A program made the translations under genes and the position numbers. Under the pieces are notes generated by a model that worked only from the letters and a program-made list of their open reading frames with translations, searched no databases and was not told the DNA's origin. This document shows positions 10,536 to 26,680 of a DNA stretch of 64,000 nt, in pieces. Origin of the DNA: Peptococcaceae bacterium BRH_c8a (GTDB lineage: Bacteria > Bacillota > Desulfotomaculia > Desulfotomaculales > Desulfallaceae); NCBI GenBank assembly GCA_000961575.1, contig LADP01000025.1, positions 1 to 64,000 on the forward strand. Reading direction: 5' to 3'. Each line of letters opens with the position of its first letter. Positions within the stretch are counted from its first letter, which is position 1.

Positions 10536-10639
10536 AGAGTCACCTCCTGCCAAAGGCCTGCTACTTATAAATTAAAGACTTAGTAATCGATTAGAAAAGA
10601 AGTTATAAAATCAGGGAAGCAAAAAGGATGACCGGGATA

Positions 10640-12288: not shown

Positions 12289-12792
12289 TTACCAACAATA
12301 TCCGCATCCGCAATTCCAGCCATAATATTGCCTGTTGCCGTTATTGTATTGCGGGGCCCGAGTAGGAGGGTTACTAGGTGCGGGTGCACTTTGCTGAACT
12401 TGCTTGACCTGCTGAACTTGCTTGGCCGGCTGGTAATTGGCCATATAGTTTTGCATCCAGGTCTGGTGCATTTTTAACGCATCCTGGGTGTTCAGGCTGG
12501 GGTTTTGCTGCATTACGCCCTGCATCCAGGCCTGCTCCATCTTGAGTAGATCATCTTTACTTAAACCGGTGGCTTTGACCCACTGGTCAACCATAGCCTG
12601 GTCAAACTGCCAGCAAGCCTGGATCATTTGTTGCACTTGCTCTGGTGTTACGGTCTGCGCCGCCGCCGGTGCCTGTGCCGGCGCAGACCGGCTGGCATTG
12701 TAGGTAGCCGCGTTGGCCACCCCCACAATGGCGATCCCCAGAGCTATAACCACTAAAATTAAATACCATTTACTGTTTTTAATTTTCTGCAC
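12289..12792 (-). CDS. exported Gln/Trp-rich protein ending in Tyr-Cys-Trp (paralogue 1)
   Basis: About 167 residues: signal peptide or anchor (KWYLILVVIALGIAIVGVANA), Ala/Pro/Gln linker, a helical core with TPEQVQQMIQACW and several MEQAWMQ / MHQTWMQ segments, a Gln/Pro linker, and a tail ending NCGCGYCW. A paralogue at 25854 shares most of the sequence, the promoter and the terminator, so the whole cassette was duplicated. GTG at 12792 is the plausible standard start. However, GGAGGTG stands right over it, and an ATT nine bases on has better spacing. The ACCCAC-N19-CGAACA promoter marks it as a SigI-class gene. Confidence 0.8.
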   Translation of the reverse strand: MQKIKNSKWYLILVVIALGIAIVGVANAATYNASRSAPAQAPAAAQTVTPEQVQQMIQACWQFDQAMVDQWVKATGLSKDDLLKMEQAWMQGVMQQNPSLNTQDALKMHQTWMQNYMANYQPAKQVQQVKQVQQSAPAPSNPPTRAPQYNNGNRQYYGWNCGCGYCW

Positions 12793-12834
12793 CTCCTTTC
12801 TTAGAATTTTGTAAACATTTTGCACCTGCAATAC

Positions 12835-12865
12835 TGTTCGTAACTAATGTTTTCTTTACGTGGGT
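12835..12865 (-). promoter_or_regulatory. SigI-type promoter of Cys-Trp paralogue 1
   Basis: Minus strand ACCCAC (12865-12860), 19 bases, CGAACA (12840-12835). The same pair at the same spacing precedes sigI and two other Cys-Trp genes. Confidence 0.75.
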
Positions 12866-13075
12866 TTTTTTAAAAATACACAGGCTTCCAACGCAATTTT
12901 AACTTTTGATTTGGCAAAGCGGTCGGCATTCTTTTTTCGGTTATATAGAGGAATCTCGATCGAAAACAATTGGTTTAACCCAGTAAAACAAAATTTGAAA
13001 ACTTTTTGGAGTGATCTTAAAATGTAGGATATTCACAGTTACACATCGCGCCTACTACCTCTAAAGGCAAAAAAA

Positions 13076-13113
13076 CAGCCCGCCCCTTCATTATAGAAAG
13101 CGCAGGCTGTTTT
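13076..13113 (-). terminator. terminator after the second MRNNKR gene
   Basis: A GCAGGCTG / CAGCCCGC type stem that is a diverged copy of the one at 9205-9247. Confidence 0.6.
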
Positions 13114-13115
13114 AG

Positions 13116-13355
13116 TTATGCTATCTTCCACACCTTCATCATCACCAGATATCCCGTTTCGTTAATCATTACCTGGTCGCCCGGGCGTAATTCATCTAAG
13201 TGGATATGGTTTCCATCAGTATCGAACAGGTATGAGGGCATAACGGCATATTTTGTTATGGTACCCAATGCGTCACTTACTTCAATCAAGCCTTTTTCAA
13301 AATCTATATTAACTATTGTTCCCGTAGATACGCTAATCCGTTTATTATTTCTCAT
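13116..13355 (-). CDS. small beta-rich protein of unknown function (MRNNKR family, copy 2)
   Basis: 79 residues when started at the ATG at 13355 (MRNNKRISVSTG), which aligns exactly with the start of copy 1 and has AGGTGACC upstream. It keeps the ALGTIT, DELRPGDQV and NETGYLVMMKVW segments. It lies downstream of rsgI on the same strand with about 150 bases between, and may be read through from sigI-rsgI. Copy 1 instead has its own hexamer-array promoter, so the paralogues seem to be differently controlled. Confidence 0.8.
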   Translation of the reverse strand: MRNNKRISVSTGTIVNIDFEKGLIEVSDALGTITKYAVMPSYLFDTDGNHIHLDELRPGDQVMINETGYLVMMKVWKIA

Positions 13356-13505
13356 GGTCACCTCCAGTTGTATGCTTAAGTAAGGCACGGTTCAACCGGT
13401 AGCTGTTTTGTACAGCGCATCCAAAAGAGGGAGGTTTGGGCGGATTTAACCGCCTTATCAGCAAAAAAGGTCGCTGACGAACTAATTAAACTTTATTATT
13501 AATAG

Positions 13506-14654
13506 CTAGTTCCAGCGATCCCAGCTATGGGATTCTGATCTTTCATTATCCTGATAGTTATTTTGATGATCTTTTTCATTGCTGTCATGTTCCTCAGCGG
13601 GTTTGGTGTAATTTGGTGCTGAAGACTGCCAGGATGAATTTTGCCCGTCCATCCGCCAGGATCCTGCTGCATGCTGTTCCGATGAAGTGCAGCCGTCATC
13701 ATCATAAAACTTTGTTCCATCATTACCCGTGCTGGTATTCACTTGAGCGGGCTGTTGACTTGTGGGGCGCCACGATTTATCGTCATGCCCCTCATTGCCA
13801 TCATGCTCACCGGCAGGCTGGTTGTTGTTTGTTGTAGTGGGCTGACCGGCTGAATTACGGCCCTGCCAGGTTACCTCACAACTATTTTTTCCAAACCACT
13901 GGGGAATGGCCGCTTGGTATTCTTCCGTCACCTGTGTGAGGCCCTGGTCTTTTACTTCTTGCGGATCTATGCTGACACCGTGTTCCCTGGCCTTTTCCGA
14001 CATAATAACCTGGTTCACCGAGTAACCTGATTGTTTGGCGTTTTGCCACTGTTCCCTATCAGCCACGTTTACCACCACATAACCGGGGTAATGTTTGGCG
14101 CTTAGTTCATCATGAATAATTGTGCGGAGCTTAGCTTCGTCAATTTGATAACTGGATGAATCCCCGGCCTTGGTGATGCCGGCCATGACAACATTGTTTT
14201 TCTGGCCGTCGAAATAGCCTGCTTTACCTGCTTTTTGCACGATCTCCCTTACAGCCAGATAGATGTCCATATTTTTTAAATCCAGTTGTTCCAACAGTGC
14301 CTTACCCGCCTCGTTAAGCGCGGTAACCTCCGTTATTTTCCCCCGGTCATCTACAGATAACTGCAAGCTGGGTTTCATGTCCAGGGTAACATAGGCGGAC
14401 ACGGGCGTTACCCCCATAGTGCCCAGCATGCCGGTGGCCAGCATCAGCAACAGCACGGCGGCGGCCGCAAGCCATTTGGTTTTTAGCAGGCTGCTAATGA
14501 AGCTTTTTTCTGCGGGGAGAGACACTTCAATTGTTGCCCCCAGGGGCGGCACAACATCGGGCAAGGGCAGGCGCCTGAATTGCCTATCTTCCGTAAGAAC
14601 CACCATTACTTTATTTGGTTGATCTATTTTAGCCACCTTGGCTTTTACCTGCAT
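13506..14654 (-). CDS. rsgI: RsgI-family membrane anti-sigma factor with His/Asp/Trp-rich exterior
   Basis: 382 residues. An RsgI N-terminal cytoplasmic domain (about 1-55), one membrane helix (about 60-84), then the conserved RsgI outer segment (SAYVTLDMKPSLQLSVDD ... VTALNEAGKALLEQLDL) and a helical region to about 250. The last 130 residues are low complexity, rich in Asn, Gln, His, Asp and Trp (GEHDGNEGHDDKSW, EEHDSNEKDH), and end SWDRWN. AGAGGT precedes the ATG, 21 bases after sigI. By family rule it holds SigI inactive until the outer part senses a signal. The tail lacks the carbohydrate-binding modules of clostridial RsgI and looks suited to metal binding (inference). Confidence 0.88.
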   Translation of the reverse strand: MQVKAKVAKIDQPNKVMVVLTEDRQFRRLPLPDVVPPLGATIEVSLPAEKSFISSLLKTKWLAAAAVLLLMLATGMLGTMGVTPVSAYVTLDMKPSLQLSVDDRGKITEVTALNEAGKALLEQLDLKNMDIYLAVREIVQKAGKAGYFDGQKNNVVMAGITKAGDSSSYQIDEAKLRTIIHDELSAKHYPGYVVVNVADREQWQNAKQSGYSVNQVIMSEKAREHGVSIDPQEVKDQGLTQVTEEYQAAIPQWFGKNSCEVTWQGRNSAGQPTTTNNNQPAGEHDGNEGHDDKSWRPTSQQPAQVNTSTGNDGTKFYDDDGCTSSEQHAAGSWRMDGQNSSWQSSAPNYTKPAEEHDSNEKDHQNNYQDNERSESHSWDRWN

Positions 14655-14675
14655 AGACCACTACCTCTTTTCCGA

Positions 14676-15395
14676 TCACTCATCCAGCCCGGCAAAATGT
14701 TTCAACGTCGCAAATCTTTCCTCGGTTATAATTACCACCAGGGCAATTATGTATTTGCGCCCGTTCTCCAGTATCCTTTTGCTTACTCTGGCTTCCCGGG
14801 ACAGTTCTTTGGCCGGCAGTCTTTTATTTTTACGCAATATCTCCAACAAATTTTTATTACTACATAAAACCTCTGCCACACGCACCAATTTTTCACGGGC
14901 ATCCCGGTGTTTGGGGCAAATATCGGCCAACTCGTTTAATGAGGTGCCATATTCCCCCAGCCGCTGCTCCAATTCAAGCATGGTTTGGGCCAGTTCCTCC
15001 TGTTCGGATTGCAACTGGTGGTTTTCCCTGGCTTGAGCACACTCCGCGAGACTGATCTCAGTTTCCTCATCGGCGTTAAAACTGGATAAAGGCTGGTGTT
15101 TATGCCTTGCCTCGCTTCTAAAATAATCAATTAACCTTTGACTGATCAGCCTGCGGGAAAATGTAAGAAAGCTAGCCCCCCTGGCGGGATTATAGAAGTT
15201 TATCGCATCATTAAAGGCAATTATCGCAATACTTAACTCGTCATCATTTTCCCAACTCAAGCGTCTGCGACAGACATTAAAGCTGGTTTTTAGGATAAAT
15301 GGCTTGTATTGTTTTATTAGTTCTTCCCGGGCCTGGCGGTCGCCTTTTTGAGCTAAATTAACCAGATTTAACGCTATGCTGTCGTTCAAGGCCAT
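14676..15395 (-). CDS. sigI: RNA polymerase sigma factor SigI
   Basis: 239 residues from the ATG at 15395. Region 2 (QKGDRQAREELIKQYKPFI, then AFNDAINFYNPARGASFLTF) and the SigI-type C-terminal domain (ELADICPKHRDAREKLVRVA ... RLPAKELSREARVSKRILE) are clear. Two longer starts (15431, 15596) are rejected because the presumed promoter, ACCCAC-N19-CGAACA at 15443-15413, lies over them; GGAG stands just before the chosen ATG. The gene is followed directly by rsgI. The same promoter pattern at other genes implies SigI drives its own transcription. Confidence 0.9.
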   Translation of the reverse strand: MALNDSIALNLVNLAQKGDRQAREELIKQYKPFILKTSFNVCRRRLSWENDDELSIAIIAFNDAINFYNPARGASFLTFSRRLISQRLIDYFRSEARHKHQPLSSFNADEETEISLAECAQARENHQLQSEQEELAQTMLELEQRLGEYGTSLNELADICPKHRDAREKLVRVAEVLCSNKNLLEILRKNKRLPAKELSREARVSKRILENGRKYIIALVVIITEERFATLKHFAGLDE

Positions 15396-15412
15396 CACTC
15401 CGCTTTGCAAAA

Positions 15413-15443
15413 TGTTCGAAGCTAAACTCATATTTAGGTGGGT
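15413..15443 (-). promoter_or_regulatory. autoregulatory SigI-type promoter of sigI-rsgI
   Basis: Minus strand ACCCAC (15443-15438), 19 bases, CGAACA (15418-15413), 17 bases before the start codon. Bacillus SigI promoters use a C-rich -35 and a CGAA -10, which this resembles. Confidence 0.75.
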
Positions 15444-15530
15444 AAATTTAAAAGAAGTTAAAGTTAATTCTTTGGTATGCTGCACATAATTGTAACTTGA
15501 ACAAAATGATTCACAAGATTTGGCCAAACA

Positions 15531-15562
15531 TAAAAATCTCCCCGAAAATTTAAGGAGAGATT
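15531..15562 (-). terminator. terminator after the short Cys-Trp gene
   Basis: Arms AAAATCTCTCC and GGGGAGATTTTT, followed by T's on the minus strand. It separates the Cys-Trp gene from sigI. Confidence 0.75.
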
Positions 15563-15568
15563 TTGTAA

Positions 15569-15979
15569 TTACCAGCACCCGTCCCGGTCCCAACAACCGT
15601 AAAGGGATGGTGGGGGAGCATTGTAAACGGCTGGTTGCTGTTGGGGGTTGCCGGCACCGGTATTGTCGGGTTTTCCGTCCGTTGTCCCGGGACCGGCAGT
15701 GTATGAAGGATACAAAGGTACAGGGAAGTTAAGGTTTACATTGCTTGTTTCCTGCCCCCGGTTAGTTTTTAAATCGCCCTGCTCTTTTAAGTCGCCCTGC
15801 TCATTTAAGTTATGCTGTTCGGCTGCGGTTACAGCTGTTCGAGCAGGCATTATATCAGCATTTCGGTACACATTGGTATTTGTGTTGATTGGCTTTGCTG
15901 AAACCATATTCATGCCGTAAAGGGCAATCCCCACAATCAAAATACCAATCAATAAAATACACCCGGTTGCTTTGTTCAT
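15569..15979 (-). CDS. exported protein with Cys-Trp ... Cys-Trp C-terminus
   Basis: 136 residues: N-terminal anchor (CILLIGILIVGIALYGMNMV), a linker with a small repeat (NEQGDLKEQGDLK), a Pro/Gly/Tyr-rich stretch, and the ending LYGCWDRDGCW. GGAGG lies 8 bases before the ATG. It lacks the TPEQ helix of its longer relatives but shares the terminal motif. It is transcribed away from the two-component operon, and an 11-bp hexamer array with a proper -10 faces it, so it is probably a direct target of that response regulator. Function unknown. Confidence 0.8.
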   Translation of the reverse strand: MNKATGCILLIGILIVGIALYGMNMVSAKPINTNTNVYRNADIMPARTAVTAAEQHNLNEQGDLKEQGDLKTNRGQETSNVNLNFPVPLYPSYTAGPGTTDGKPDNTGAGNPQQQPAVYNAPPPSLYGCWDRDGCW

Positions 15980-16007
15980 ATAGGGTGCCTCCTTTATTTG
16001 TTTTTTT

Positions 16008-16061
16008 AGTATAATGGATCAACTTGTCAGGCACGTAATCTGAACTTAACATTTTTGTAAC
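16008..16061 (-). promoter_or_regulatory. 11-bp hexamer array plus -10 box facing the short Cys-Trp gene
   Basis: Minus strand: GTTACA (16061-16056), N5, GTTAAG, N5, ATTACG, N5, GACAAG (16028-16023), nine bases, TATACT (16013-16008). Confidence 0.78.
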
Positions 16062-16087
16062 ATTGGAAGTTCATTTATAATAAAAAT

Positions 16088-16130
16088 GTTAAACTACTAA
16101 AAAGAGCTTGTAACAATACTGGTCTATAAT
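16088..16130 (+). promoter_or_regulatory. hexamer sites plus -10 box of the two-component operon
   Basis: GTTAAA at 16088 and GTAACA at 16110 (22 bases apart, with a weak middle hexamer), nine bases, then a perfect TATAAT (16125-16130). With the array just to the left that faces the other way, this suggests the response regulator controls itself and its divergent neighbour. Confidence 0.68.
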
Positions 16131-16173
16131 AATCTATCTATCTGCAGGTAATATTTTGAGGTGGTGAGGATCT

Positions 16174-16866
16174 TTGTCCAATATAGTGATGATAGCCGAT
16201 GACGACCCACGCATTAGAAGCGTAGTGAGGCTATACCTGGAAGCCGAGGATTTTCAGGTTATTGAGGTGGAAAACGGCGCGGCGGCGATAAAACAGCTAA
16301 ACGAAACCCAAATAGATTTAATTATTCTGGATTTGATGATGCCGGTTATGGACGGCTGGACGGCCTGCAAATACATACGCAAAAATGCCGAAGTACCGGT
16401 AATCATGCTTACAGCTAAAGGCGAAGAAAACGACCGTATCCTGGGGCTGGAGCTGGGTGCTGATGATTATATCGTCAAACCGTTCAGCCCGCGTGAACTG
16501 GTGGCCAGGGTCAAAGCGGTGCTGCGCCGGTCGGAAAACAAGCAATCCGATACTTATACTTACAAGTACCCGGGGCTGACGATAAACGCGGTGACGCGAC
16601 AGGTGAAGGTCAATGACCGAGAAATCAAACTTACTTTAAAAGAATTTGATTTACTGCATTTACTTGTCCAAGCCCCAGGCCGGGTTTACACCCGGGATGA
16701 GCTGTTGGAACAAGTTTGGGGTTTTGATTATTGCGGGGACACCCGTACTGTTGACACACACATAAATCGGTTAAGATATAAAATTGAGGAGCAGGGTGGC
16801 AACAGCAGCTTTATCCAAACCGTCCGGGGGGTGGGTTATAAATTTCTACCGGAAGATGGTCAATAA
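16174..16866 (+). CDS. OmpR/PhoB-family response regulator
   Basis: 230 residues: receiver domain with the acidic pocket DDD (residues 9-11), phospho-acceptor Asp in IILDLMMPVMDG (about 53), Lys in DYIVKPFSPRE, and a C-terminal winged helix (LTLKEFDLLHLL ... VWGFDYCGDTRTVDTHINRLR). Start is TTG behind GAGGTGGTGAGG. The sensor kinase follows at once. Upstream and genome-neighbour 11-bp repeats match what this family binds. They resemble the TTnACA repeats of Bacillus PhoP, but the presumed targets here are envelope genes, not phosphate genes. Confidence 0.93.
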   Translation: MSNIVMIADDDPRIRSVVRLYLEAEDFQVIEVENGAAAIKQLNETQIDLIILDLMMPVMDGWTACKYIRKNAEVPVIMLTAKGEENDRILGLELGADDYIVKPFSPRELVARVKAVLRRSENKQSDTYTYKYPGLTINAVTRQVKVNDREIKLTLKEFDLLHLLVQAPGRVYTRDELLEQVWGFDYCGDTRTVDTHINRLRYKIEEQGGNSSFIQTVRGVGYKFLPEDGQ

Positions 16867-16892
16867 AAAATAGTATTGTTGGCAAGTTCTGG

Positions 16893-18290
16893 GTGCTTAT
16901 TGTTACCCTCATATTAATCGTCCTGGCTGTTTCGATTCTCATCCAGTCCAATCAGATCAAGTCTTTAATATACAACCAGCAGGCCCAGTTTTTTATTTAT
17001 GAGGCCAATGAAGTGTCCACCATCATTAAAAACGAATCATCATCGGAGGTAGTTAATGAACGGGTGCGCATTTTGGCCCAGTTTTTAAACGCTACCATAT
17101 TAATCTATGACCGGGACGGTGATTTGACTACCGCCCAGAAGACGCAACATGAGGGGCATAATCACGTCATTTTGAAAAAAGAGTTTTTGACCAGGGTATG
17201 GCAGGGGGGAAATATCATTCATGCCGGCAAGGTGAATAACTACCCCATTGACATTTTCCTGGTTGCTGTGCCAGTCATAGAGAATGATAAAATCACCAAG
17301 GCTGTGGTCATCTATAGCCCCCTGGCACCACTGAAGCAGCAAATAAATAGCATCAGGCAAATTTCTTTTTGGGGCGCCCTGCTGGGTATGGGGCTGGCCA
17401 CAATTCTTAGCGTGTTTATACTAAAAACCATGACCAGGCCGCTTCTAAAAATGGAAGCAGTGGCCCATGCCATTGCCAATGGTGAGTTCGGCAAACAGGT
17501 GCCCGTGGTTACCAATGACGAAGTGGGGAAATTGGCTTCTTCGCTTAATAATATGTCTTTACAGCTAAAGGAAAAAATTGAAGCCATTGAGCGGCTGGAT
17601 AAAACCAGGCAGGAGTTTGTCTCTAATGTCTCTCATGAACTGCGCACGCCGCTGACCGTAATCCAGAGCTTTTCGGAGGCGATTTTGGACGGACTGGTTA
17701 AAGAGGAAAAGGTAAGGGATTTTTACCTTAAAAACATTTTGGAGGAATCCAAACGGCTAAAACGCCTGGTGGACGACCTATTGGACTTAAAAGCTTTGGA
17801 AGCCGGGCAAACCCTGGCCGACATGGAGTATGTATTGATTTCCAAACTGGTTATGGTTACGTCCGGGAACTTTATGAGCCTGGCTAAGGAGAAGAATATA
17901 GATTTAAACGTAACCATTAAAGACAAAGAGGTAACTGTTTACGGCAATATCGACCGGCTCAAACAAGTGATGACCAACTTGATCGGCAACGCCATTGCTC
18001 ACACTCAGCCGGGTGGCCGGGTGGAAATCATGGAAGAACAAAAAGATGACCGGGTATTGATCAGTGTGGCCGACAATGGCCCGGGTATCCCGCCGGAGGA
18101 AATTGAGCATATCTGGGAGCGGTTCTATAAAGTGGACAAGTCCAGATCCAGGGGTGCTGGGGGCACGGGTTTGGGCCTGGCCATTGCCAGGCGGATTGTC
18201 GAGCTGCACGGCGGATCCATTACCGTCGAAAGTGCTCCGGGCCAGGGGGCTGTTTTCATCGTAAACCTTCCCATTATCAACAATGTTTAA
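16893..18290 (+). CDS. membrane sensor histidine kinase (PhoR/WalK-like)
   Basis: About 465 residues: membrane helix 1 near the start, extracellular sensor (about 25-145), helix 2 (ISFWGALLGMGLATILSVFIL), HAMP linker (TRPLLKMEAVAHAIANGEFG), HisKA with the His in SHELRTPLT, and HATPase with NLIGNAIAHT, DNGPGIP and [12 protein letters not shown]. The frame stays open upstream to SIVGKFW, which would complete the first helix, but the only codons there are ATA (16863, overlapping the response-regulator stop) and ATT; the GTG at 16893 has no ribosome site. Signal unknown. Confidence 0.9.
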   Translation: MLIVTLILIVLAVSILIQSNQIKSLIYNQQAQFFIYEANEVSTIIKNESSSEVVNERVRILAQFLNATILIYDRDGDLTTAQKTQHEGHNHVILKKEFLTRVWQGGNIIHAGKVNNYPIDIFLVAVPVIENDKITKAVVIYSPLAPLKQQINSIRQISFWGALLGMGLATILSVFILKTMTRPLLKMEAVAHAIANGEFGKQVPVVTNDEVGKLASSLNNMSLQLKEKIEAIERLDKTRQEFVSNVSHELRTPLTVIQSFSEAILDGLVKEEKVRDFYLKNILEESKRLKRLVDDLLDLKALEAGQTLADMEYVLISKLVMVTSGNFMSLAKEKNIDLNVTIKDKEVTVYGNIDRLKQVMTNLIGNAIAHTQPGGRVEIMEEQKDDRVLISVADNGPGIPPEEIEHIWERFYKVDKSRSRGAGGTGLGLAIARRIVELHGGSITVESAPGQGAVFIVNLPIINNV

Positions 18291-18311
18291 AGCCGGCGGG
18301 CACTCAAGCAT

Positions 18312-18341
18312 GAAGGTAGGTTTCATCACCTACCTTTTTTA
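18312..18341 (+). terminator. terminator of the two-component operon
   Basis: AAGGTAGGT, six-base loop, ACCTACCTT, then a T run. Confidence 0.85.
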
Positions 18342-18551
18342 TTACCGAAAGGTAAGTGGTGGTTTCGGAAAATCCGCAGTTTATTGGATTGGAGTACTGG
18401 GAGCGGCGCTGGCCGGGATTTAGACATTATTTTTATAGAACTTAATCCTCACTGATAAAAACAAAATGCTTTTTCGTGCCATAATAAAACGCCTATAGTA
18501 TTCAGGAGGTATATTTATCAAACCAATGTTTTATCCGTGTTTTTATTTTTA
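18342..18551. other. intergenic stretch before the Met-repeat Cys-Trp gene
   Basis: A CAGGAGGTATATTTATC ribosome-like site at about 18503 is followed only by a nine-codon ORF (ATG at 18525) at a poor distance. I see no gene here. Confidence 0.4.
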
Positions 18552-18582
18552 ACCCACTTAAAGTTCGGCCCGAATACGAATA
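18552..18582 (+). promoter_or_regulatory. SigI-type promoter of the Met-repeat Cys-Trp gene
   Basis: ACCCAC (18552-18557), 19 bases, CGAATA (18577-18582). It is unlike its three relatives in spacer sequence, so the shared hexamers and shared 19-base spacing are unlikely to come from duplication alone. Confidence 0.7.
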
Positions 18583-18629
18583 ACCATTAAAGGAGCGCTC
18601 CCATACCAATTCAGGAGGTTAATAGACAA

Positions 18630-19193
18630 ATGAATTTAAAAAAGAAAATTCTACCCATCACACTAACACTACTTTTAAGCGTTGGTTCGCTGGGCGTAGC
18701 TTACGCCGCTGCCCCCACTGATTACCAACAAAAAATGGCCAATTGGATACAAAACGATCCCAACCCCATGCCGATGAATATGAATATGGATATGAACATG
18801 AATATGAATAGCACTAACCCTAATTCCGGGGCAGGCAAATCCAGTAACCCATCTAACAGCGCAAATCAGACCACTGTTAATAAACAAGGGACTGCACAAC
18901 AGCAATCTAACGGCACAAACCAGGGCTACAATATGATGCCGAACATGACACCTGAGCAAATGCTGGAATTGGATAAGGCCTGGATGGAAAAAACGGCCCA
19001 AAAACAGCAGGCCCCCGCGGGTTACAATATGATGCCGAATATGACACCTGAGCAAATGCTGGAATTGGATAAAGCCTGGATGGAAAAAACGGCCCCAAAA
19101 CAGCAAGCTCCCACAGGAAGCAAGAATTACCAAAAATCTTGGAGCGGCAACACACACCAGCAAAACTGGAACTCCCAATATTGCAGATGGTAA
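18630..19193 (+). CDS. exported Met-rich protein with 32-residue repeats, ending Cys-Arg-Trp
   Basis: 187 residues: signal peptide (LPITLTLLLSVGSLGVAYA), a strikingly Met/Asn-rich block (PMNMNMDMNMNMN), a Ser/Asn/Gln linker, two tandem 32-residue repeats starting YNMMPNMTPEQMLELDKAWM (96 bp, first at 18927, second at 19023), and the end NSQYCRW. AGGAGG precedes the ATG. Met blocks like this occur in Cu(I)/Ag(I)-binding secreted proteins. The TPEQ helix links it to the paralogues at 12.3 and 25.9 kb. The SigI-type promoter places it in the sigI regulon. Confidence 0.83.
   Translation: MNLKKKILPITLTLLLSVGSLGVAYAAAPTDYQQKMANWIQNDPNPMPMNMNMDMNMNMNSTNPNSGAGKSSNPSNSANQTTVNKQGTAQQQSNGTNQGYNMMPNMTPEQMLELDKAWMEKTAQKQQAPAGYNMMPNMTPEQMLELDKAWMEKTAPKQQAPTGSKNYQKSWSGNTHQQNWNSQYCRW
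18927..19118 (+). repeat. two tandem 96-bp coding repeats
   Basis: Copies at 18927-19022 and 19023-19118 differ at only a few bases and encode the two 32-residue TPEQ repeats. The near-identity points to a recent duplication. Confidence 0.85.
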
Positions 19194-19219
19194 AATAAAT
19201 ACCAATACTTCTTACTACA

Positions 19220-19252
19220 GAGAGGCTGCCGGATTTATCGGCAGTCTTTACT
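19220..19252 (+). terminator. terminator after the Met-repeat gene
   Basis: GGCTGCCG, short loop, CGGCAG, then TCTTT. Confidence 0.7.
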
Positions 19253-19317
19253 TATCAATGGGTTAATAATAACAACATTTTAAACGGTTCTGTTAATAAC
19301 TAAAAAGCAAATAAGCA

Positions 19318-19352
19318 GAAGGGAAGCTCCTATCGAGCCCCCCTTCTGCTTA
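19318..19352 (-). terminator. terminator after the small tri-Cys exported protein gene
   Basis: AAGCAGAAGGG and CCCTTCTGCTT arms; T-rich sequence follows on the minus strand. Confidence 0.75.
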
Positions 19353-19362
19353 ACATTTAACT

Positions 19363-19602
19363 TTAGTTTGCTGTCACCACCATATCGGGGCAGGAAGAAG
19401 ATTTCATCATTTCAACACAAGCTTTAGCCTGTTCCTTGGTGATCATGTCAGCATCAACAGAATCATTCATCATATCACGGCAAACCTTGATAACCTGGGC
19501 CTGGACAGCTCTGGGGTTTGCGTTTTCCGCGGGAGCGGCGAAAGCGGGTACGGCAGCAAATAGTGCTGAAACAGTGACTGCTAATAGAATTAGTTTTTTC
19601 AC
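19363..19602 (-). CDS. small exported protein with three cysteines
   Basis: 79 residues: clear signal peptide (MKKLILLAVTVSALFAAVPA, cleavage near FAA), then a 55-residue helical domain with cysteines in KVCRDMM, AKACVEMM and SSCPDM. The segment MITKEQAKAC matches RITPEQAKAW of the Met-rich Cys-Trp protein at 6.1 kb, so it looks like a tail-less relative. GGAGG precedes the ATG. It is controlled by a three-fold 11-bp hexamer array with a perfect -10. Function unknown; a periplasmic-type metal or redox role is inference. Confidence 0.8.
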   Translation of the reverse strand: MKKLILLAVTVSALFAAVPAFAAPAENANPRAVQAQVIKVCRDMMNDSVDADMITKEQAKACVEMMKSSSCPDMVVTAN

Positions 19603-19659
19603 GACAATTCCTCCGACTAAGATTATTTTGAGGACACAGTATCCAACCGTGCGTGTCTA

Positions 19660-19702
19660 ATTATAAATAGGAATTGTCACAAACATGTGTCATAAGGGTA
19701 AC
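19660..19702 (-). promoter_or_regulatory. 11-bp hexamer array plus -10 box before the tri-Cys protein gene
   Basis: Minus strand: GTTACC (19702-19697), N5, GACACA, N5, GTGACA (19680-19675), nine bases, TATAAT (19665-19660). Confidence 0.78.
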
Positions 19703-19789
19703 ATTTTTGTTTGGATCACAAAACTGCTGCTTTTTTTGTGGTGATAAAAGAACTCATTATCAAAGCTTTATGGGTGCCCGGCTGTTTAC

Positions 19790-20914
19790 TTACAGATAAT
19801 TCCTGGGGTTGACGGGGTTACCGTTTTCTCGCACTTCAAAGTGCAGGTGCGGTCCCGTGGACATCCCGGTACTGCCTACCCGGGCGATAGTCTGTCCTTT
19901 GGTGACCGTCTGCCCTACCTTGACCAGTTGGGTTGATAGGTGGGGGTACAGGGTAGTAATACCCCCGCCGTGATCCAGCATCACTATATTGCCGTAACCG
20001 CCCATGTAGCTGACATCGATTACACGACCGCTCTGGGCGGCCACCACGGGGGTACCCGAAGGCGCGGGAATGTCCATGCCCGTATGTAACTTCCTGGTTT
20101 TTAAAATAGGGTGCATACGATAACCAAATGGCGAGGATACGTTTGCATAACCCGGTAAGGGCCAGATAAAAGCGCCCGTGGCTGCAGGCTGCTGCCCGGC
20201 TTTCTGGCGGGCCATCTGGCTGATTATGGCTTCCTCTTGTTCTTCCAAACGCTGCACTTCAGCCTGGTACTTGCTTAAATCCCGGTTGGCCCCGGCCAGA
20301 AGTTCCCTTTTTACCGCACCCCGCGAGGCCAGTTCCATCTGCGCCGTCCGCTGGCGGTCTAGCAAAGCAGTAATCTTTTCTTTTTGCTGTTGCAGCTCCT
20401 TGTTCTTTGCCCCCAGTTCTTGTTTAAGTCTTTTCATTTCCTCCACTGCCCCTGCGTCCCTGTCCACCACTCGCTTGAGCAGTTCATAGCGGTTTAGAAA
20501 ATCGCCAAAGTCCCTTGAAGCCAGCAATACTTCCAGGTAACTTACCGTGCCGTTCATGTACATTCCCCGCACCCGCCGCTGTAAATCCCGGTTGTTTTGC
20601 TGTAATTGCTCCTCGGTCTGTTTTATTTCCCGTTCATTCCGCGCAAGATTGGCCAGCGCCATATCCAGCCGGGTGCTAAGGCTGTTAACCTCACGGTTTT
20701 GTAGATCAATTTCCCGGTCAATGGCCTTAACTTCATCCGCATATGATTTGGCCTCGCTTTTCTTTTTGTTTTCCTGTTGCTTAACCTGGTAGAGCTTTTG
20801 TTTGGTCTGTTGCAATAAATCTTCCAGATTCGCACCGTAAGCCGGGCCATAACCTGAAACCAGCCCAGTGACCAGGATTATAATCATGGCTTTTTTACCC
20901 CAACCCGAACGCAT
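19790..20914 (-). CDS. EnvC-like M23 peptidoglycan endopeptidase with coiled coil
   Basis: 374 residues: signal anchor ([18 protein letters not shown]), a long coiled coil (about 25-245), and a C-terminal LytM/M23 zinc domain with the complete metal and catalytic set ([25 protein letters not shown]). By family it cuts cross-links in peptidoglycan, usually at division or sporulation septa; coiled-coil partners regulate the activity. It stands alone on the minus strand. Upstream hexamers (GTACAC, TGTAAC, GACAAT at 11-bp steps) hint at the same regulon, but no -10 box is found at the right distance. Confidence 0.9.
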
Positions 20915-20986
20915 TTAAACATCCCCTGTCAAATTTACTTTATTGTCGTTAAGTTACAATTAGGTGTACTAGTATTTTGTTTTTAA

Positions 20987-21178
20987 TCAACCCATTAAAC
21001 TTTTGTTTTCTTTTTTATAGTTGCCACTCAGTTGATATGTATTGATTAACAGATCAATTTGCATGCTTAGACCAAGCACTTCTCCATGTCTGAAATTGTA
21101 ATTATGTATTTGGGCTGTTTCTACCAGCAAACGCCTTAAATGCTCAAGATGCACCATGCCCCGATCCTGGTTTTTCAT
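20987..21178 (-). CDS. Spo0E-family aspartyl-phosphate phosphatase
   Basis: 63 residues forming a two-helix hairpin: EHLRRLLVETAQIHNYNF then EVLGLSMQIDLLINTYQ. The LSMQID-LI segment corresponds to the SQELD-LI signature of Spo0E proteins, which remove phosphate from Spo0A~P and delay sporulation; here Q-I-D replaces Q-E-L-D. GGAG stands before the ATG. The promoter is an 11-bp hexamer array, so the two-component system may link an envelope signal to the sporulation decision. Confidence 0.82.
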   Translation of the reverse strand: MKNQDRGMVHLEHLRRLLVETAQIHNYNFRHGEVLGLSMQIDLLINTYQLSGNYKKENKSLMG

Positions 21179-21227
21179 GATGGCGGTCTCCTTTTCCAGC
21201 AGAGGTTAAATATAGTCACTTCTAATC

Positions 21228-21281
21228 AGCATAACCTATGAATTTGTCCAGCTTGTTACATAAACTTAAAATTTTTGTGAT
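21228..21281 (-). promoter_or_regulatory. 11-bp hexamer array plus -10 box before the Spo0E gene
   Basis: Minus strand: ATCACA (21281-21276), N5, TTTAAG, N5, GTAACA, N5, GACAAA (21248-21243), nine bases, TATGCT (21233-21228). Confidence 0.78.
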
Positions 21282-21328
21282 AATTGTCGTGTAATGTCAC
21301 ACTAGAACCTGTTACCAGCAATGAAAAG

Positions 21329-21356
21329 AGCTGCCCCTGAAGAGCAGCTCATTCTT
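21329..21356. terminator. hairpin with T runs on both sides
   Basis: GAGCTGC, loop, GCAGCTC, with TTTT after it on either strand. It lies in a 480-base stretch (21179-21656) where I see no gene; a 60-codon frame after it has no ribosome site. Confidence 0.55.
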
Positions 21357-21656
21357 TTGGTTTTTATTGGTGTTTCCCTACCTGCCAAAGTTATGCCAAG
21401 TGCCGTTGTGTTGCATGCGCTATTGCTAAACGATTTGACGTTTCAGGCTGCCGCCTCCTTGTCCAACCAGTATAACTTCTCGGCAACACAGGCCGAAAAC
21501 TAGATACCAACATGATGCCATACAAAACTAGAACCCTGTCTAAGCCTAGCGGATGAGTATTAATGTCTTTTTAATCTTTTTATTTATAAACCATACATAA
21601 AAACTATGTAGAATAAAAAGATATAATAAAATGCTCTTTCTAAAAGGGGTTATAAC

Positions 21657-22700
21657 ATGGCATTAACACGTTTCCGAACAAAAACTGCCCCCAGGCATAA
21701 AAAGACCAACATAAATGAATCATTTTACTTATGGGAGCTGCTAAAAAGTTATTTCGTTACATATGAAAGTATTAAAACATGGGAAGATTATGCTGAGGAT
21801 ACCCAGCTAAACGACTTTTTAAAAAGATATAGTGGAAGCTTGGAAGATAACATTACCAGACTGGAAACGGCAATGGATAAACAGGGACTGGGTGAACCCG
21901 ACAGACAGACAATCGGGGTAACTTATACCCTGGGTGCGAACAAATTGAATGATAGGTACATCGCCAATGAAACATTAACACTGGCGCAAAAAAATGTCGA
22001 CTTATTAACAAGAGCAATAGGGGCACCGGCTATCAATGATGATATACACTCTTTACTGGTTAAATTCGTGCCCGGAGCAATGGAGTACAGAGATGAAATG
22101 GCCAAGTATGTTGAAATGAACGGCTGGCTGGAAAGTTCGTCTTATGTTCCACAAGTAACTGTGGGTACGAAACGCAAGCCGGCTAAAGGTCCTTCGTCGA
22201 AGTCCGATGTGCATGGCGATAGTTCGGCAAGCTTAGTAGATAGGGTGAAGCAGGATACTTTAACTATCGGCACCATCGCAGGCCTAATCGGCGTATCGTC
22301 AATGCACATTGTAGGTATGTTATGGATGTGGCTGGGATGGGCAAAAGTAAGCACCCTTCAGGTTTCAGGTGCAATTTTTATTGATGAAAGTGACGTTAAT
22401 ACAACATTGGGATTAATGATCAGCGCAATTGCTCATCTAATAGTGGGCTCAGCAGGAGGAGTGTTGCTGTCTCATTATATGAAATACGTCGGGAAGGATT
22501 TTTTCTGGTTGAAAGGACTGGCTTTGTCGGGCCTATTATTGCTTGGGGGCATGGGGCTCATAGTCCACATGTTGAACATATATCCCAAGGCGGAAAAAGA
22601 CGCCCTCACACAGTTTTTACATATGATAAACTATTTTATATACGGCATTGTAGTTTCTTATATACTCGCTAGATATGCTGTTTACAAAAAACGCACATAA
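21657..22700 (+). CDS. DUF3231 domain fused to a multi-spanning membrane domain
   Basis: 347 residues. Residues 15-165 are helical and match the DUF3231 / spore-coat-like ferritin-type pattern (ESFYLWELLKSYFVTYESIK ... AGAMEYRDEMAKY-like), normally a soluble protein. A Ser/Lys linker leads to five hydrophobic helices (about 205-340) similar to the stand-alone protein at 11.7 kb. AAAGGGG lies before the ATG, and a TATAAT is present near 21623. The fusion suggests the soluble domain works at the membrane, perhaps of the forespore; that is inference. Confidence 0.72.
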   Translation: MALTRFRTKTAPRHKKTNINESFYLWELLKSYFVTYESIKTWEDYAEDTQLNDFLKRYSGSLEDNITRLETAMDKQGLGEPDRQTIGVTYTLGANKLNDRYIANETLTLAQKNVDLLTRAIGAPAINDDIHSLLVKFVPGAMEYRDEMAKYVEMNGWLESSSYVPQVTVGTKRKPAKGPSSKSDVHGDSSASLVDRVKQDTLTIGTIAGLIGVSSMHIVGMLWMWLGWAKVSTLQVSGAIFIDESDVNTTLGLMISAIAHLIVGSAGGVLLSHYMKYVGKDFFWLKGLALSGLLLLGGMGLIVHMLNIYPKAEKDALTQFLHMINYFIYGIVVSYILARYAVYKKRT

Positions 22701-22807
22701 GCTTGCCTTTGTTATAACACTTTTTGAAGTTGGAATACTGGCAATAAGATGGGCTGCATACAATAAGCCCCACTTAACAACTGTACCATACTAAAACGTT
22801 TTTTAAT

Positions 22808-22861
22808 GTTACAAAAAGTTTAAATACATGTAGCATTGCTGACAAATTGATAAGGTAAAAT
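22808..22861 (+). promoter_or_regulatory. 11-bp hexamer array plus -10 box before the LysM-G5-M23 gene
   Basis: GTTACA (22808), N5, TTTAAA, N5, GTAGCA, N5, GACAAA (22841-22846), nine bases, TAAAAT (22856-22861). The expected transcription start is at about 22868, two bases before the start codon. Confidence 0.78.
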
Positions 22862-22869
22862 CAATAACT

Positions 22870-24210
22870 ATGAGGGTAAAATTAGCAAAGCAGGCAGAAA
22901 ATAAGCAGCCCCATAAATATAAATTACTAATAACAGCCCTTGTTCTTGGAATATTGGCTGTTATTATAGGGGCAAGCTTCACAGGCGTATGCGCTATCAG
23001 TGTGGGCGGAGAGATAATAGCCTACGGAGAAAACAAGAAGCAAGTCGATAAAATTATTAACCGCTTGACTTCGGAAAAATCACAGGTATTGGGCCAGGAG
23101 GTCACTGTTGGCAAAGACCTGGAGCTTAAGACAACCAAAAGCTCCAAGGAACCGTTGAATGAACAAGAGCTATATGCAGTTTTAGCTGGAAAGGTTGATT
23201 TTGTAACCAGGGGCGTATTAGTTAAGATTAAAGGCAGCCCGGAATTGCAATTCAAGAACCGGGCCACTGCAGATTCGTTTTTTCAAAAGCTAAAAGAAAG
23301 GTATAGAACCGGTGCCAATTGTGAAGTGAGCATTGCTGAAAAGACTGAAATAATAGAGCAGGAAATAAATATTAATGAATTGGATACAATTGAACGCGCC
23401 CTGCAGTTGGCGCAGCAGGGAAAAGATAAACCAATAAGACACATTGTTCAAGAAAATGATACCCTGTGGGATCTCGCCGTAACTTACGATACCAGTGTAG
23501 AAGAGTTGATGCGATTAAATCCGGAAACAAGCGAGAATCTGCAGCTGGGGCAGGAAATTATAACTTCCGGGTATGCACCGCTACTTACAGTAATAAGTGA
23601 GTTTGAACTAACCCAGGAAGAAAAAATACCGTTTGAAACTGAATACATAAACGACTCTTCCCTACCCCGGGGAACCAGTAAAACCATCCGGCAAGGGGAA
23701 CCCGGGATTAAAAAAGTGACGTACCGGGTTACCGCCCAAAACGGGAAAATAACAGAGAAAAAGATAGTAACCGAAGATGTTATTAAAGAACCCCAAGCCG
23801 GGATAGTTAATAGGGGGACAAAGTTTGTGCTGTCGTTCAGAGGCGGGGGTGCCCTGGTCTGGCCTGCTTCAGGAAGCGTCACATCCCGTCTCGGGCCGCG
23901 CTGGGGTAGAAGTCATACCGGCATAGATATCGATGCAGGGTACGGGAGCCAGGTTTGGGCGGCCGGACCGGGCCGGGTGGTCAGCGCCGGGTGGAACGGC
24001 GGGTACGGCCAAATGGTGGCCATATCCCACGGTAATAATGTGGTAACCCGATACGCACATTTGTCGTCCATTAATGTAAAAGCAGGGCAGACCGTCGACA
24101 GCCGTCAGTTTATCGGCCGGGTAGGCACATCCGGCAATACCACCGGACCAAATCTGCATTTTGAAGTACTGATCAACGGAGCCCAAAAAAATCCCTTGAA
24201 TTACCTATAA
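22870..24210 (+). CDS. membrane-anchored LysM-G5-M23 peptidoglycan hydrolase-like protein
   Basis: 446 residues: N-terminal anchor (about 18-42), an extracellular region, LysM (about 195-240: IVQENDTLWDLAVTYDTS), G5 (about 245-315), and M23 (about 325-446). The M23 zinc ligands are visible in RSHTGIDID and the final His of LHFE, but the usual GPHLHFE reads GPNLHFE, so the first His of the HxH pair, thought catalytic, is Asn. It may bind rather than cut. No ribosome site precedes the ATG. The -10 box ends nine bases upstream, so the message is likely leaderless. Confidence 0.88.
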   Translation: MRVKLAKQAENKQPHKYKLLITALVLGILAVIIGASFTGVCAISVGGEIIAYGENKKQVDKIINRLTSEKSQVLGQEVTVGKDLELKTTKSSKEPLNEQELYAVLAGKVDFVTRGVLVKIKGSPELQFKNRATADSFFQKLKERYRTGANCEVSIAEKTEIIEQEININELDTIERALQLAQQGKDKPIRHIVQENDTLWDLAVTYDTSVEELMRLNPETSENLQLGQEIITSGYAPLLTVISEFELTQEEKIPFETEYINDSSLPRGTSKTIRQGEPGIKKVTYRVTAQNGKITEKKIVTEDVIKEPQAGIVNRGTKFVLSFRGGGALVWPASGSVTSRLGPRWGRSHTGIDIDAGYGSQVWAAGPGRVVSAGWNGGYGQMVAISHGNNVVTRYAHLSSINVKAGQTVDSRQFIGRVGTSGNTTGPNLHFEVLINGAQKNPLNYL

Positions 24211-24221
24211 AAAGCATGTTT

Positions 24222-24265
24222 ATAACCCGCCAGGATTACTTTGCTGAATTCTGGCGGGTTATTGT
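24222..24265. terminator. bidirectional terminator
   Basis: TAACCCGCCAG and CTGGCGGGTTA arms between two convergent genes, T-rich on both sides. Confidence 0.85.
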
Positions 24266-24290
24266 TTATTGTAACTTTGCCATTCTCCCG

Positions 24291-25712
24291 CTATGTTAAT
24301 ATTGCTTGCATGGCAATAAAAAGAACCGTAGCCAGGCCGATTACTACTGCCGCGTACGGTAATGTTGTTTGTACGTGGTCTAAAATGGGAATATCTGTGA
24401 TGGCCGAAGTTAATACCGGCGTTTCGCCCAGGGGGGATACGTTATCGCCGATGGAGCCCCCGGCTAAAACCGCACCCACAGTCAGAGGCAGGCCGGCACC
24501 CGTGCTTACCGCCAGCGGCAGGCCCAAGGGCATCATCAGCGCCCAGGTGGCCCACGAGGAACCGATAAAGTAGGAGGTAAAGCCGGCGATTAAAAATACC
24601 GCCGCCGGTATAAATAATTTGGGGATGGTCGCGCCCACGGTTTCCGATACAAACTCGATAAACCCCAGGTCCTGGGTGGCACTGGACAATGACCAGCTTA
24701 AAATCAAAACCACGATGGGGGGCAGCAGTTCGGTGCCGCCGCTTAAAAAATGGCTCTCCATTTCGGCCATCGGTATTTTTTGCAAAGCATAATACAAGGC
24801 GGTAATTACTAATGTGGCAAAGGTGGCAATAAATATGGCCTTCTCAAATTCGGCGTTTAAATAAGCCTGCATAAAAGTACGCCCTTCTCCCTGACCGGTG
24901 TACCAAAATAAAAAGAAGATCAAGCCAATTAATAAAGCCAGGGGCAGCAGCAGGTTTGATACCCTGGGCTGGGCCTTTTCTTCAAATTGGCACTGTTCGT
25001 GGGCTTCATGCTCACCATGCACGCCGCCTTCCGCGCTGCCGCCTTTACCAAAGCGCCATTTGCCAAAACCCAGGCCGAAATAAATGACCAGGACACTCAT
25101 CAGAACCATGCCGATGGAGTAAAAATTGTACGGGATACTCTGCACATACAAGGCATAAGGTGAACCTTCAATCCCCGCTTTACGCATGGACGAGGCTGTA
25201 ACCCCGATGATATATCCAACATAAGTAGTGGCCACGGGTATTAAGACTATCAGCTGGCTTGATGTGACGTTAACCACCATAGCCAGCTTTTCCTTGGAGC
25301 CCTTAACCTTCTCAATTAAGGGCCCGGCAATAGTGCCTGTGGAAATGACATGAAAGCAGCAATCTAAAAAAGTGGCCGGGGTTGCTGCCCAGACGGACAG
25401 CAAAGCTCCCCTTTCACTTTTTACATACCGTTGGGCCAGGATGGAAAAGCCTTTTATCCCGCCGGACATTTTAAAAATCTCGGTCAGCGAGCCAAACAAA
25501 AACAGAAATAAAACGATATAGGCGCTGCCGGGGTCGGCCAGCGCATCAACAATATACTCAGTGGCTTTAACCACACCCGTAAAGACATTCCGGGCAACCA
25601 GCATGCCACCTACTAATAAACCGAGGGTCAGAGAGGGGATGATACGCTTGGTGATAATAGCCGTGGCTAAGGTGGTTAAGGGGGGAATTAAAGACATCCA
25701 GTTGCCGTCCAT
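24291..25712 (-). CDS. NhaC-family Na+/H+ antiporter
   Basis: About 473 residues with some eleven hydrophobic helices. Signatures of the COG1757 NhaC group include the N-terminal LIPPLTTLATAIITKRII, the ATPATFLDCCFHVISTGTIAGP segment, and GSSWATWALMMPLGLPLA followed by GGSIGDNVSPLGETP. It exchanges sodium for protons across the membrane; amino-acid antiport is possible in the family. The start is the ATG at 25712 behind GGTGGAGG; the GTG at 25727 overlaps that site. A His/Glu-rich cytoplasmic loop (HGEHEAHEQ) could be a pH or metal sensor (inference). Confidence 0.88.
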   Translation of the reverse strand: MDGNWMSLIPPLTTLATAIITKRIIPSLTLGLLVGGMLVARNVFTGVVKATEYIVDALADPGSAYIVLFLFLFGSLTEIFKMSGGIKGFSILAQRYVKSERGALLSVWAATPATFLDCCFHVISTGTIAGPLIEKVKGSKEKLAMVVNVTSSQLIVLIPVATTYVGYIIGVTASSMRKAGIEGSPYALYVQSIPYNFYSIGMVLMSVLVIYFGLGFGKWRFGKGGSAEGGVHGEHEAHEQCQFEEKAQPRVSNLLLPLALLIGLIFFLFWYTGQGEGRTFMQAYLNAEFEKAIFIATFATLVITALYYALQKIPMAEMESHFLSGGTELLPPIVVLILSWSLSSATQDLGFIEFVSETVGATIPKLFIPAAVFLIAGFTSYFIGSSWATWALMMPLGLPLAVSTGAGLPLTVGAVLAGGSIGDNVSPLGETPVLTSAITDIPILDHVQTTLPYAAVVIGLATVLFIAMQAILT

Positions 25713-25802
25713 GTACAAAACCTCCACCCGTAGTTTAGGTAGAGGTATCGTTTTTTATCCTCGCAGGTTGCGTAGTATGGCAGATATACCAGGGCATAAA
25801 GA

Positions 25803-25828
25803 TAAAGCCGGGAGGCTATCCCGGCTTT
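25803..25828 (-). terminator. terminator after Cys-Trp paralogue 2
   Basis: AAAGCCGGGA, short loop, TCCCGGCTTT. Near-copy of the hairpin at 12236-12262. Confidence 0.8.
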
Positions 25829-25853
25829 ACACTGAAGGGAGGAGAGGAGGTTG

Positions 25854-26384
25854 TTACCAACAATATCCGTTGTTCCAGCAATGACCGCCATAATACTGCC
25901 TGTTACCGTTATTGTACTGCGGGGCCTGAGCTGGAGGGTTACTGGGCGCGGGTGTATTTTGCTGAACTTGTTTGGCTTGCTTGTTTTGCTGAACCTGCTT
26001 GGCCGGCTGGTAATCGGCCATATAATTTTGCATCCAGGACTGGTGGATTTTAAAAGCATCCTTGGTGCCCAGGTTGGGGCTTTGCTGCATTACGCCCTGC
26101 ATCCAGGTCTGCTCCATCTTGAGGAGATCTACTTTACTTAAACCGGTGGCTTTGACCCACTGGTCAACCATAGCCTGGTCAAACCGCCAGCAAGCCTGGA
26201 TCATCTGTTGCACTTGCTCTGGTGTTACGTTGGACTGCACCGCCGCCTGAGCCTGGGCCGGAGCCGGAGTCGGAGCGGCCTGGCTGGCCTTAAAGGTATT
26301 CGCGTTGGCCACCCCCACAATGGCAATCCCCAGAGCTATGACCAATAAAGTCAAGAGCCATTTACTGTTTTTAATTTCACGCAC
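25854..26384 (-). CDS. exported Gln/Trp-rich protein ending in Tyr-Cys-Trp (paralogue 2)
   Basis: 176 residues: anchor or signal (KWLLTLLVIALGIAIVGVANA), Ala/Pro/Gln linker, TPEQVQQMIQACW core with MEQTWMQ and IHQSWMQ repeats, Gln/Lys linker and the end GHCWNNGYCW. It mirrors the gene at 12289 in promoter, signal, core, tail and terminator; the linker lengths and the last 20 residues differ most. GTG start at 26384 after AAAGGA, with an ATT three codons on that has better spacing. SigI-type promoter upstream. It has one more Cys-Trp pair than its sister. Confidence 0.8.
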   Translation of the reverse strand: MREIKNSKWLLTLLVIALGIAIVGVANANTFKASQAAPTPAPAQAQAAVQSNVTPEQVQQMIQACWRFDQAMVDQWVKATGLSKVDLLKMEQTWMQGVMQQSPNLGTKDAFKIHQSWMQNYMADYQPAKQVQQNKQAKQVQQNTPAPSNPPAQAPQYNNGNRQYYGGHCWNNGYCW

Positions 26385-26426
26385 ATCCTTTCTAAATTTT
26401 TTTGAACACTTGCACCCGCAATATAC

Positions 26427-26457
26427 TGTTCGTAACCAATGTTTTCTTTACGTGGGT
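26427..26457 (-). promoter_or_regulatory. SigI-type promoter of Cys-Trp paralogue 2
   Basis: Minus strand ACCCAC (26457-26452), 19 bases, CGAACA (26432-26427). The spacer is nearly identical to that at 12.8 kb because the cassette was duplicated. Confidence 0.75.
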
Positions 26458-26680
26458 TTTTTAAAATGTTTGGTAGCTACTACAGCAGTTCATCGGTGGT
26501 TATTGGGATGGCCCGGGGAAAAGTGCTGGAGGTTGGATTAGGCACCAGTCAGGCATTGATTTTAGAGACTTAATATCCAAAAATTAACTGACCTGAGCAA
26601 TACAAAAATATTAAAGCTAATTGTTGCTTCCCCGTAGGCAATAGAACCAGATGCTAAGGCCATTCATAAAGCACATGGTC

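Follow-up and report, generated by a model that had tools for sequence, protein, structure and literature searches.

Probable SigI-type promoters before sigI and genes for exported tryptophan-tailed proteins in Peptococcaceae bacterium BRH_c8a and five relatives

Introduction

Which genes does SigI, an envelope-stress sigma factor, control when its gene lies among genes for exported proteins that end in tryptophan? Regulons described for SigI so far deal with cell-wall synthesis in Bacillus and with polysaccharide enzymes in cellulolytic clostridia. The question is raised by a 64,000-nucleotide stretch (the window; LADP01000025.1, positions 1-64,000) of the 4.17-Mb genome of Peptococcaceae bacterium BRH_c8a (here G000), which encodes SigI (14676..15389, minus strand) and its anti-sigma factor RsgI (13506..14654, minus strand). 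A preliminary description of the window had pointed to four sites reading ACCCAC-N19-CGAA, one before sigI and three before genes for exported proteins rich in Cys and Trp, and had taken them for SigI promoters. We consider it probable that this SigI recognizes all four sites as promoters and so drives sigI, together with rsgI, as well as a local regulon for exported proteins that are largely disordered and end in Trp. This assignment rests on features of the sequence: the motif, its placement and conservation, its co-occurrence with one clade of SigI, and the Trp tails. From these we infer the dependence on SigI, the proteolysis of RsgI, the role in the envelope, and the link to a neighboring two-component system. 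If true, this would be a new class of SigI target, namely exported and disordered proteins with a Trp tail and no known relatives, together with a relaxed -10 element; no report of such targets was found in the searchable literature, and a literature search for SigI studies in relatives of Desulfotomaculum found none.

Promoter motif around sigI

All four sites lie at the positions and on the strands first described, with a spacing of exactly 19 nucleotides each time, compared to 0.08 expected in the window, and none of 100 shuffles reached four. The bare pattern, which had been proposed as a regulon finder for the whole genome, fails in that role: 12 matches were obtained, equal to background (12 with a reversed control), and the signal is thus carried by clustering and not by the pattern. 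The ACCCAC and CGAA elements were correctly recognized in the preliminary description, but a TAAA A-tract, common to all four sites after ACCCAC-N, had been overlooked, and the fuller motif is ACCCAC-N-TAAA-N14-CGAA. In this form (CCCACNTAAA-N14-CGAA), only the four window sites occur in the genome (control, 0), plus one stray with N13. The relaxed form CCCAYNWAAA-N14-CGRANA adds two sites in G000 (control, 0): one inside a helicase region, the other 1.2 kb from another sigI and upstream of a CAP-domain gene.

The predicted promoter of sigI (15413..15443, minus strand) reads ACCCAC-CTAAA-N14-CGAACA; that of the exported Cys-Trp gene at 12.3 kb (12835..12865, minus strand) and that of its duplicate (26427..26457, minus strand) both read ACCCAC-GTAAA-N14-CGAACA; and that of a Met-rich Trp-tail gene (18552..18582, plus strand) reads ACCCAC-TTAAA-N14-CGAATA. 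Published SigI promoters have a C-rich specificity region, an A-tract (AAA) ending the -35 element, a gap of 13-14 nucleotides, and a CGWA -10 element, and those of Bacillales read ACCCCC--AA-N15-CGAA (PMC4711584, PMC6056542, PMC10575876). Every published element is present at 4/4 window sites, with ACCCAC as the C-rich region upstream of the A-tract, TAAA at the 3' end of the -35 element, and CGAA as the -10 element 14 nucleotides away, and the pairing of the motif with this SigI clade recurs in five relatives, which supports the original assignment to SigI. Two listed open reading frame (ORF) starts, at 12831 and 15596, were rejected as lying at or upstream of a predicted transcription start.

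The motif could instead be the binding site of another regulator, for example the neighboring two-component system, which is conserved beside sigI and has likely boxes of its own within the locus. This is highly improbable in our view: each element (the fixed 14-nucleotide gap, the C-run, the A-tract, and CGRA) has its match in published SigI promoters, the sites stand on the coding strand as far from their genes as a promoter would, and other genes are preceded by a different repeat, TGTNAC-N5-TGTNA, such as an OmpR-family regulator would be expected to bind.

Co-occurrence of motif, SigI clade, and exported proteins

Among 60 related genomes, the exported Cys-Trp protein (E<1e-30) was identified in six, exactly the six that have an orthologue of this SigI: G000, G007 (Desulfotruncus alcoholivorax DSM 16058), G042, G043 (Desulforadius tongensis DSM 29799), G056, and G059, which together make up a small set of bacteria of the sulfate-reducing type. 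The SigI proteins of these genomes (59-100% identity; <=48% in all others of the 60) form one monophyletic clade with a support of 100/100. The association of SigI clade, protein, and motif was found in no genome tested beyond G000 and its five relatives. A scan of a genome collection returned five loci, every one from genomes already in the set or near copies of them; L097, a near copy of G056, was excluded as an independent case.

When 113 genomes of the order were scanned for exact CCCACNTAAA-N14-CGAA, 4 sites appeared in G000, 3 in G007, and 1 each in G043 and G059, all near sigI, plus 5 single sites elsewhere; with CGGA in place of CGAA there were 5 in G056, 2 in G042, and 1 in G059, again all near sigI, plus 5 single sites away from these loci, of which G000 has one. 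Combined as CGRA, these amount to 18 sites in the six genomes (17 in sigI loci) versus 9 in the other 107. In the six loci, the relaxed local scan yielded 23 sites, with N14 in 21 cases and N15 in two, and every one stands upstream of an ORF on the same strand. An N15 motif in G042 (13369-13400) was not relied on, since its palindromic sequence may represent a terminator. The 12.8-kb promoter is conserved in G007 (ACCCACGTAAAGAAAACATTTGATACGAACA) and G043 (ACCCATGTAAA..CGAATG); the sigI promoter is conserved upstream of sigI in G043, G042, and G059, with the CGGA form in the latter two; and a promoter of the Met-rich Trp-tail type also stands before related genes in G059 (15858) and G056 (9581).

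The proposed regulon of exported Cys-Trp genes holds in that the motif precedes three of them in the window, but two further genes of this kind, at 15569-15979 and 6082-6489, are without it. Its content is also broader than had been suggested: besides Trp-tail genes, the 23 ORFs comprise sigI, rsgI, a short sigI-like gene, genes for proteins with S-layer-homology (SLH) domains, and a few unidentified ORFs.

A shared motif within one locus might merely reflect the duplication of genes along with their upstream DNA. For two genes this did happen: the 12.8- and 26.4-kb copies, near the latter of which lies a histidine-kinase-like remnant, were clearly duplicated together with their promoters, whose spacers are nearly identical, leaving three independent sites in the window and not four. 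As the preliminary description had argued, however, the spacers of the sigI and 18.5-kb promoters are unrelated to the rest, which refutes duplication as a full account; across the five further genomes the motif bases are retained while the spacers diverge, and the motif also precedes sigI, rsgI, and the SLH genes, none of which is related to the Cys-Trp genes. We therefore give mere duplication scarcely any credence and read the shared motif as a set of SigI promoters.

A variant -10 element and SigI residue 97

Reading of the upstream regions revealed a -10 element of CGGA in G056, G042, and partly G059, which falls outside the published CGWA. In the structure of SigI6, R97 wedges between positions -13 and -12, and -12 is described as A or T (PMC10575876). 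Residue 97 (positions here follow SigI6 numbering) is Gln in 6/6 clade members and in 0/30 other SigI proteins examined, while clade promoters carry A or G at -12; one promoter differs between L097 and G056 by exactly this base (CGAA and CGGA, respectively). We hypothesize that Gln97 permits either A or G at -12. Residues 74 and 93 were rejected as a cause of the CGAA/CGGA difference, neither giving a clean split. The A/G change at -12 together with a clade-specific Gln at the wedging residue makes a testable case of evolving SigI specificity.

SigI, RsgI, and a short SigI-like protein

The SigI of the window is readily assigned (NCBIfam SigI, E=1e-78; SigI6 structure 8i24, E=5.6e-40) and ends in LDE; its start is most likely a TTG at 15389 that follows GGAG and is conserved in relatives. 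Both the SigI-N and SigI-C domains are present, and the -10 contacts R98, D101, and R104 are found in 6/6 clade members. The adjoining rsgI encodes a cytoplasmic N-terminus (with a weak RsgI_N match, E=0.1), one transmembrane (TM) helix, an RsgI_M periplasmic domain (Pfam, E=2.7e-25), and a disordered tail rich in Trp, Asn, and Gln that ends in WDRWN; in this clade the C-terminus of RsgI lies at or near a Trp. Its sole Pfam domain above cut-off is RsgI_M and its tail is of low complexity, with no carbohydrate-binding or enzyme sensor domain.

Periplasmic domains of RsgI in the PDB match the window protein at E=7.8e-11, and the 8her/8heq chains, which are cleaved RsgI periplasmic domains, begin at a Pro aligned to its Pro95. 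In this alignment the canonical Asn-Pro (N-P) autocleavage motif is absent from the window RsgI, which has K-P instead, as do G007 and both copies in G056; G042 has T-S and G059 N-S, while N-P is present in a paralogous RsgI of G042 (contig C48). Given the absence of the N-P pair, the first cleavage of RsgI probably needs another protease. RsgI8 of Clostridium thermocellum likewise lacks self-cleavage, so that N-P is not strictly defining (PMC12203970).

The locus varies among the relatives. In G043, this RsgI can be recognized over no more than about 67 residues at its N-terminus. G007 has a second rsgI copy (C19:19291-20562) with the SigI motif, followed by the apparent start of a lost sigI, and its sigI at 26286-27005 has lost its -35 element; a rearrangement seems to have broken up the sigI-rsgI operon. 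A short SigI-like protein (10023..10553, minus strand) corresponds to the sigma-2 part (NCBIfam, E=2.9e-16 over residues 18-108 only), with no recognizable SigI-C domain. Orthologues were identified in G007 (C19:25614-26105) and G056 (C1:1879246-1879683) only, both with a SigI motif upstream, and the protein might act together with SigI or modulate it.

Exported Trp-tail proteins

The two Cys-Trp paralogues of the window, about 170 amino acids each and ending in ..GYCW, are encoded at 12289..12792 and 25854..26384 (both minus strand) and are ~80% identical. The first has a signal peptide (..VGVANA/AT), a predicted 4-helix core with invariant QMIQxCW and DLLxMExxWM (pLDDT near 85), and a Q/P linker and Trp tail (WNCGCGYCW) predicted to be disordered; the tail of the second is HCWNNGYCW. 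Close to the second, a stretch at 26690-26900 (minus strand) resembles a truncated histidine-kinase C-terminus, as if part of the locus had been duplicated together with this gene. The 12.3-kb gene appears to start near 12783-12792. Where relatives have ATG-AAA-AAC/AGC, there is no ATG at 12783-12792 or 26375-26384; G000 has ATT-AAA-AAC after GGAGG (or a GTG further upstream), which suggests that these paralogues use a rare ATT start.

Three further exported proteins share the Trp tail. The Met-rich protein of 18630..19193 (plus strand) contains MNMNMDMNMNMN and a duplicated NMTPEQMLELDKAWM and ends in YCRW. The Cys-Trp-tail protein of 15569..15979 (minus strand; tail GCWDRDGCW) is encoded just upstream of sigI, and its counterpart adjoins sigI in G007, G043, G042, and G059. 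The Met/Gly-rich protein of 6082..6489 (plus strand) ends in ..GGWCW. Neither of the latter two genes has a SigI motif. ORFs of at least 100 amino acids that end in Trp made up 24/217 in the six loci, 1/106 in paralogous SigI loci, and 0/20 in the far part of the window; the Trp-tail proteins of the same loci otherwise differ widely in sequence. Searches of Pfam, NCBIfam, PDB sequences, and Foldseek with the Cys-Trp protein returned no credible family or fold, matches to Peptidase_C70 and ABC2 being below cut-off and judged to be chance, and a plasmid search returned no match.

Such composition raises the alternative that the SigI promoters are real and the proteins serve in handling copper or heavy metals, rather than in cell-wall or surface homeostasis. 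The proteins are rich in Met (as in MNMNMDMNMNMN), Cys, Trp, and His; a heavy-metal P-type ATPase with HMA domains (6611-9052) is conserved near sigI in G007, G043, and G059; and an ArsR-like gene lies near the locus in G007. Against this, no known metal-binding family was found for the proteins, the core alignment is without evident conserved metal-site spacing, SLH proteins are among the SigI targets, and M23 hydrolases recur in the loci. We regard a metal-handling function as unlikely and favor a surface role.

The Trp-tail enrichment, the loss of N-P, and an HtrA-type PDZ protease in the G056 locus lead to another idea, by analogy with DegS/sigma-E: C-terminal Trp might itself be the signal, with Trp-ended exported proteins and the RsgI tail bound by an envelope partner (e.g., a PDZ protease). 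Exposed tails would then convey the state of the envelope, as the tails of outer-membrane proteins do to DegS, and trigger cleavage of an RsgI incapable of self-cleavage. We hold this to be very doubtful. The serine protease in question (L071, 15440-16579) lies within the SigI/Trp-tail locus of G056, and none was seen in the remaining five; a broad HtrA link to these loci was therefore rejected.

Neighboring genes and WalR-like boxes

An OmpR/WalR-type response regulator (16174..16866, plus strand; Pfam Response_reg, Trans_reg_C) and a HAMP histidine kinase (16893..18290, plus strand; Pfam HisKA, HATPase_c, HAMP) are encoded near sigI; the response regulator adjoins sigI in G007, G043, and G059 and is nearby in G056. 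The consensus of the WalR box is TGTWAH-N5-TGTWAH. Similar TGTNAC-N5-TGTNA repeats were found upstream of Trp-tail genes that are without the SigI motif, several in G056 and two in the window: 16046-16062 (TGTTACAAAAATGTTAA), before the 15569..15979 gene, and 6030-6046, before the 6082..6489 gene. Direct repeats of this form number 27 in 40 kb of G056 (L071/L072), compared to 0.4 expected, often in overlapping tandem and upstream of many Trp-tail genes. Two peptidoglycan hydrolases are also encoded in the window: a PcsB-like coiled-coil plus M23 protein (19790..20914, minus strand; Pfam), with one of the same type beside sigI in G042, and a LysM-G5-M23 protein (22870..24210, plus strand; Pfam), whose architecture is shared with the G056 and G059 loci.

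A possible circuit and its known counterparts

In the circuit that we propose, SigI would be kept at the membrane by RsgI, whose disordered, Trp-rich outer part would register the condition of the envelope; RsgI would then be cleaved and SigI freed. RNA polymerase with SigI would read the ACCCAC-N-TAAA-N14-CGRA promoters, and the surface would be loaded with Cys-Trp proteins, Met-rich Trp-tail proteins, and, in some of the relatives, SLH proteins as well. The WalRK-like neighboring system plausibly controls other Trp-tail genes through the TGTNAC-N5-TGTNA boxes.

Several points weigh against this proposal. The motif was defined on the window sites and then relaxed with the relatives in view, which makes the figure of 23 partly a product of fitting; counts with the exact pattern suffer less from this, but the CGGA form was picked after the relatives had been seen. 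Duplication accounts for two of the four window sites, and the motif precedes only part of the Trp-tail family. The sigI of G007 retains a CGAACA -10 element and no complete motif, and that of G056 likewise has no complete motif; autoregulation is thus not universal. Without an N-P site the usual activation step of RsgI may not apply, and activation here probably differs from the main model, as with RsgI8. The core of the Cys-Trp protein has no known relative, so that the envelope role would rest on export, neighbors, and SLH targets. Finally, we infer that the adjacent two-component system reads the TGTNAC-N5-TGTNA boxes, and in the window these are weakly enriched (3 versus 0.6 expected, two of them upstream of Trp-tail genes).

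The regulon would thus be partial and mixed, and the locus appears similar to the SigI/WalKR cell-wall circuit of Bacillus, but with a new set of targets. Like the B. subtilis SigI-RsgI/WalKR regulon (lytE, mreBH, bcrC), it has a SigI-RsgI pair whose RsgI carries no carbohydrate-binding sensor domain, an apparently self-regulated sigI, a C-rich -35 element with AA, a CGAA -10 element, and nearby genes for peptidoglycan hydrolases and an OmpR-type two-component system. Control of sigI, lytE, and mreBH is shared by SigI and WalKR in B. subtilis, where SigI, WalKR, and LytE cooperate (PMC7478892). Here, in contrast, exported disordered proteins with Trp tails and SLH proteins, encoded in a cluster around sigI, are the putative targets, the exact SigI motif is missing from the hydrolase genes, the -35 element is ACCCAC-N-TAAA, and the -10 element can be CGGA. 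With SigI1-SigI8/RsgI of C. thermocellum the locus shares the AAA A-tract, the 13-14 nucleotide spacing, a paralogue-specific C-rich region (CCCYYAAA for SigI3), and the presence of several SigI paralogues per genome, whereas the polysaccharide-enzyme targets and the carbohydrate-binding or enzyme domains of RsgI in that species have no equivalent here.

The other SigI-RsgI modules of G000 (C5, C39:83.6 kb, and C21) differ from that of the window in their ACCCTC letters and in having no Cys/Trp tail. In these modules the gene immediately upstream of sigI codes for an exported protein, and in C5 and C39 this gene has an ACCCTC-CAAAA-N14-CGAA motif. Such motifs, with the letters ACCCTC-N-AAA or ACCCCC-N-AAA, were located at L079 11585-11615 (C5), L080 11132-11162 (C39:85 kb), and L076 7245-7275 and 11690-11721 (G042 C48), which suggests that the pairing of SigI with an exported protein is general in these bacteria.

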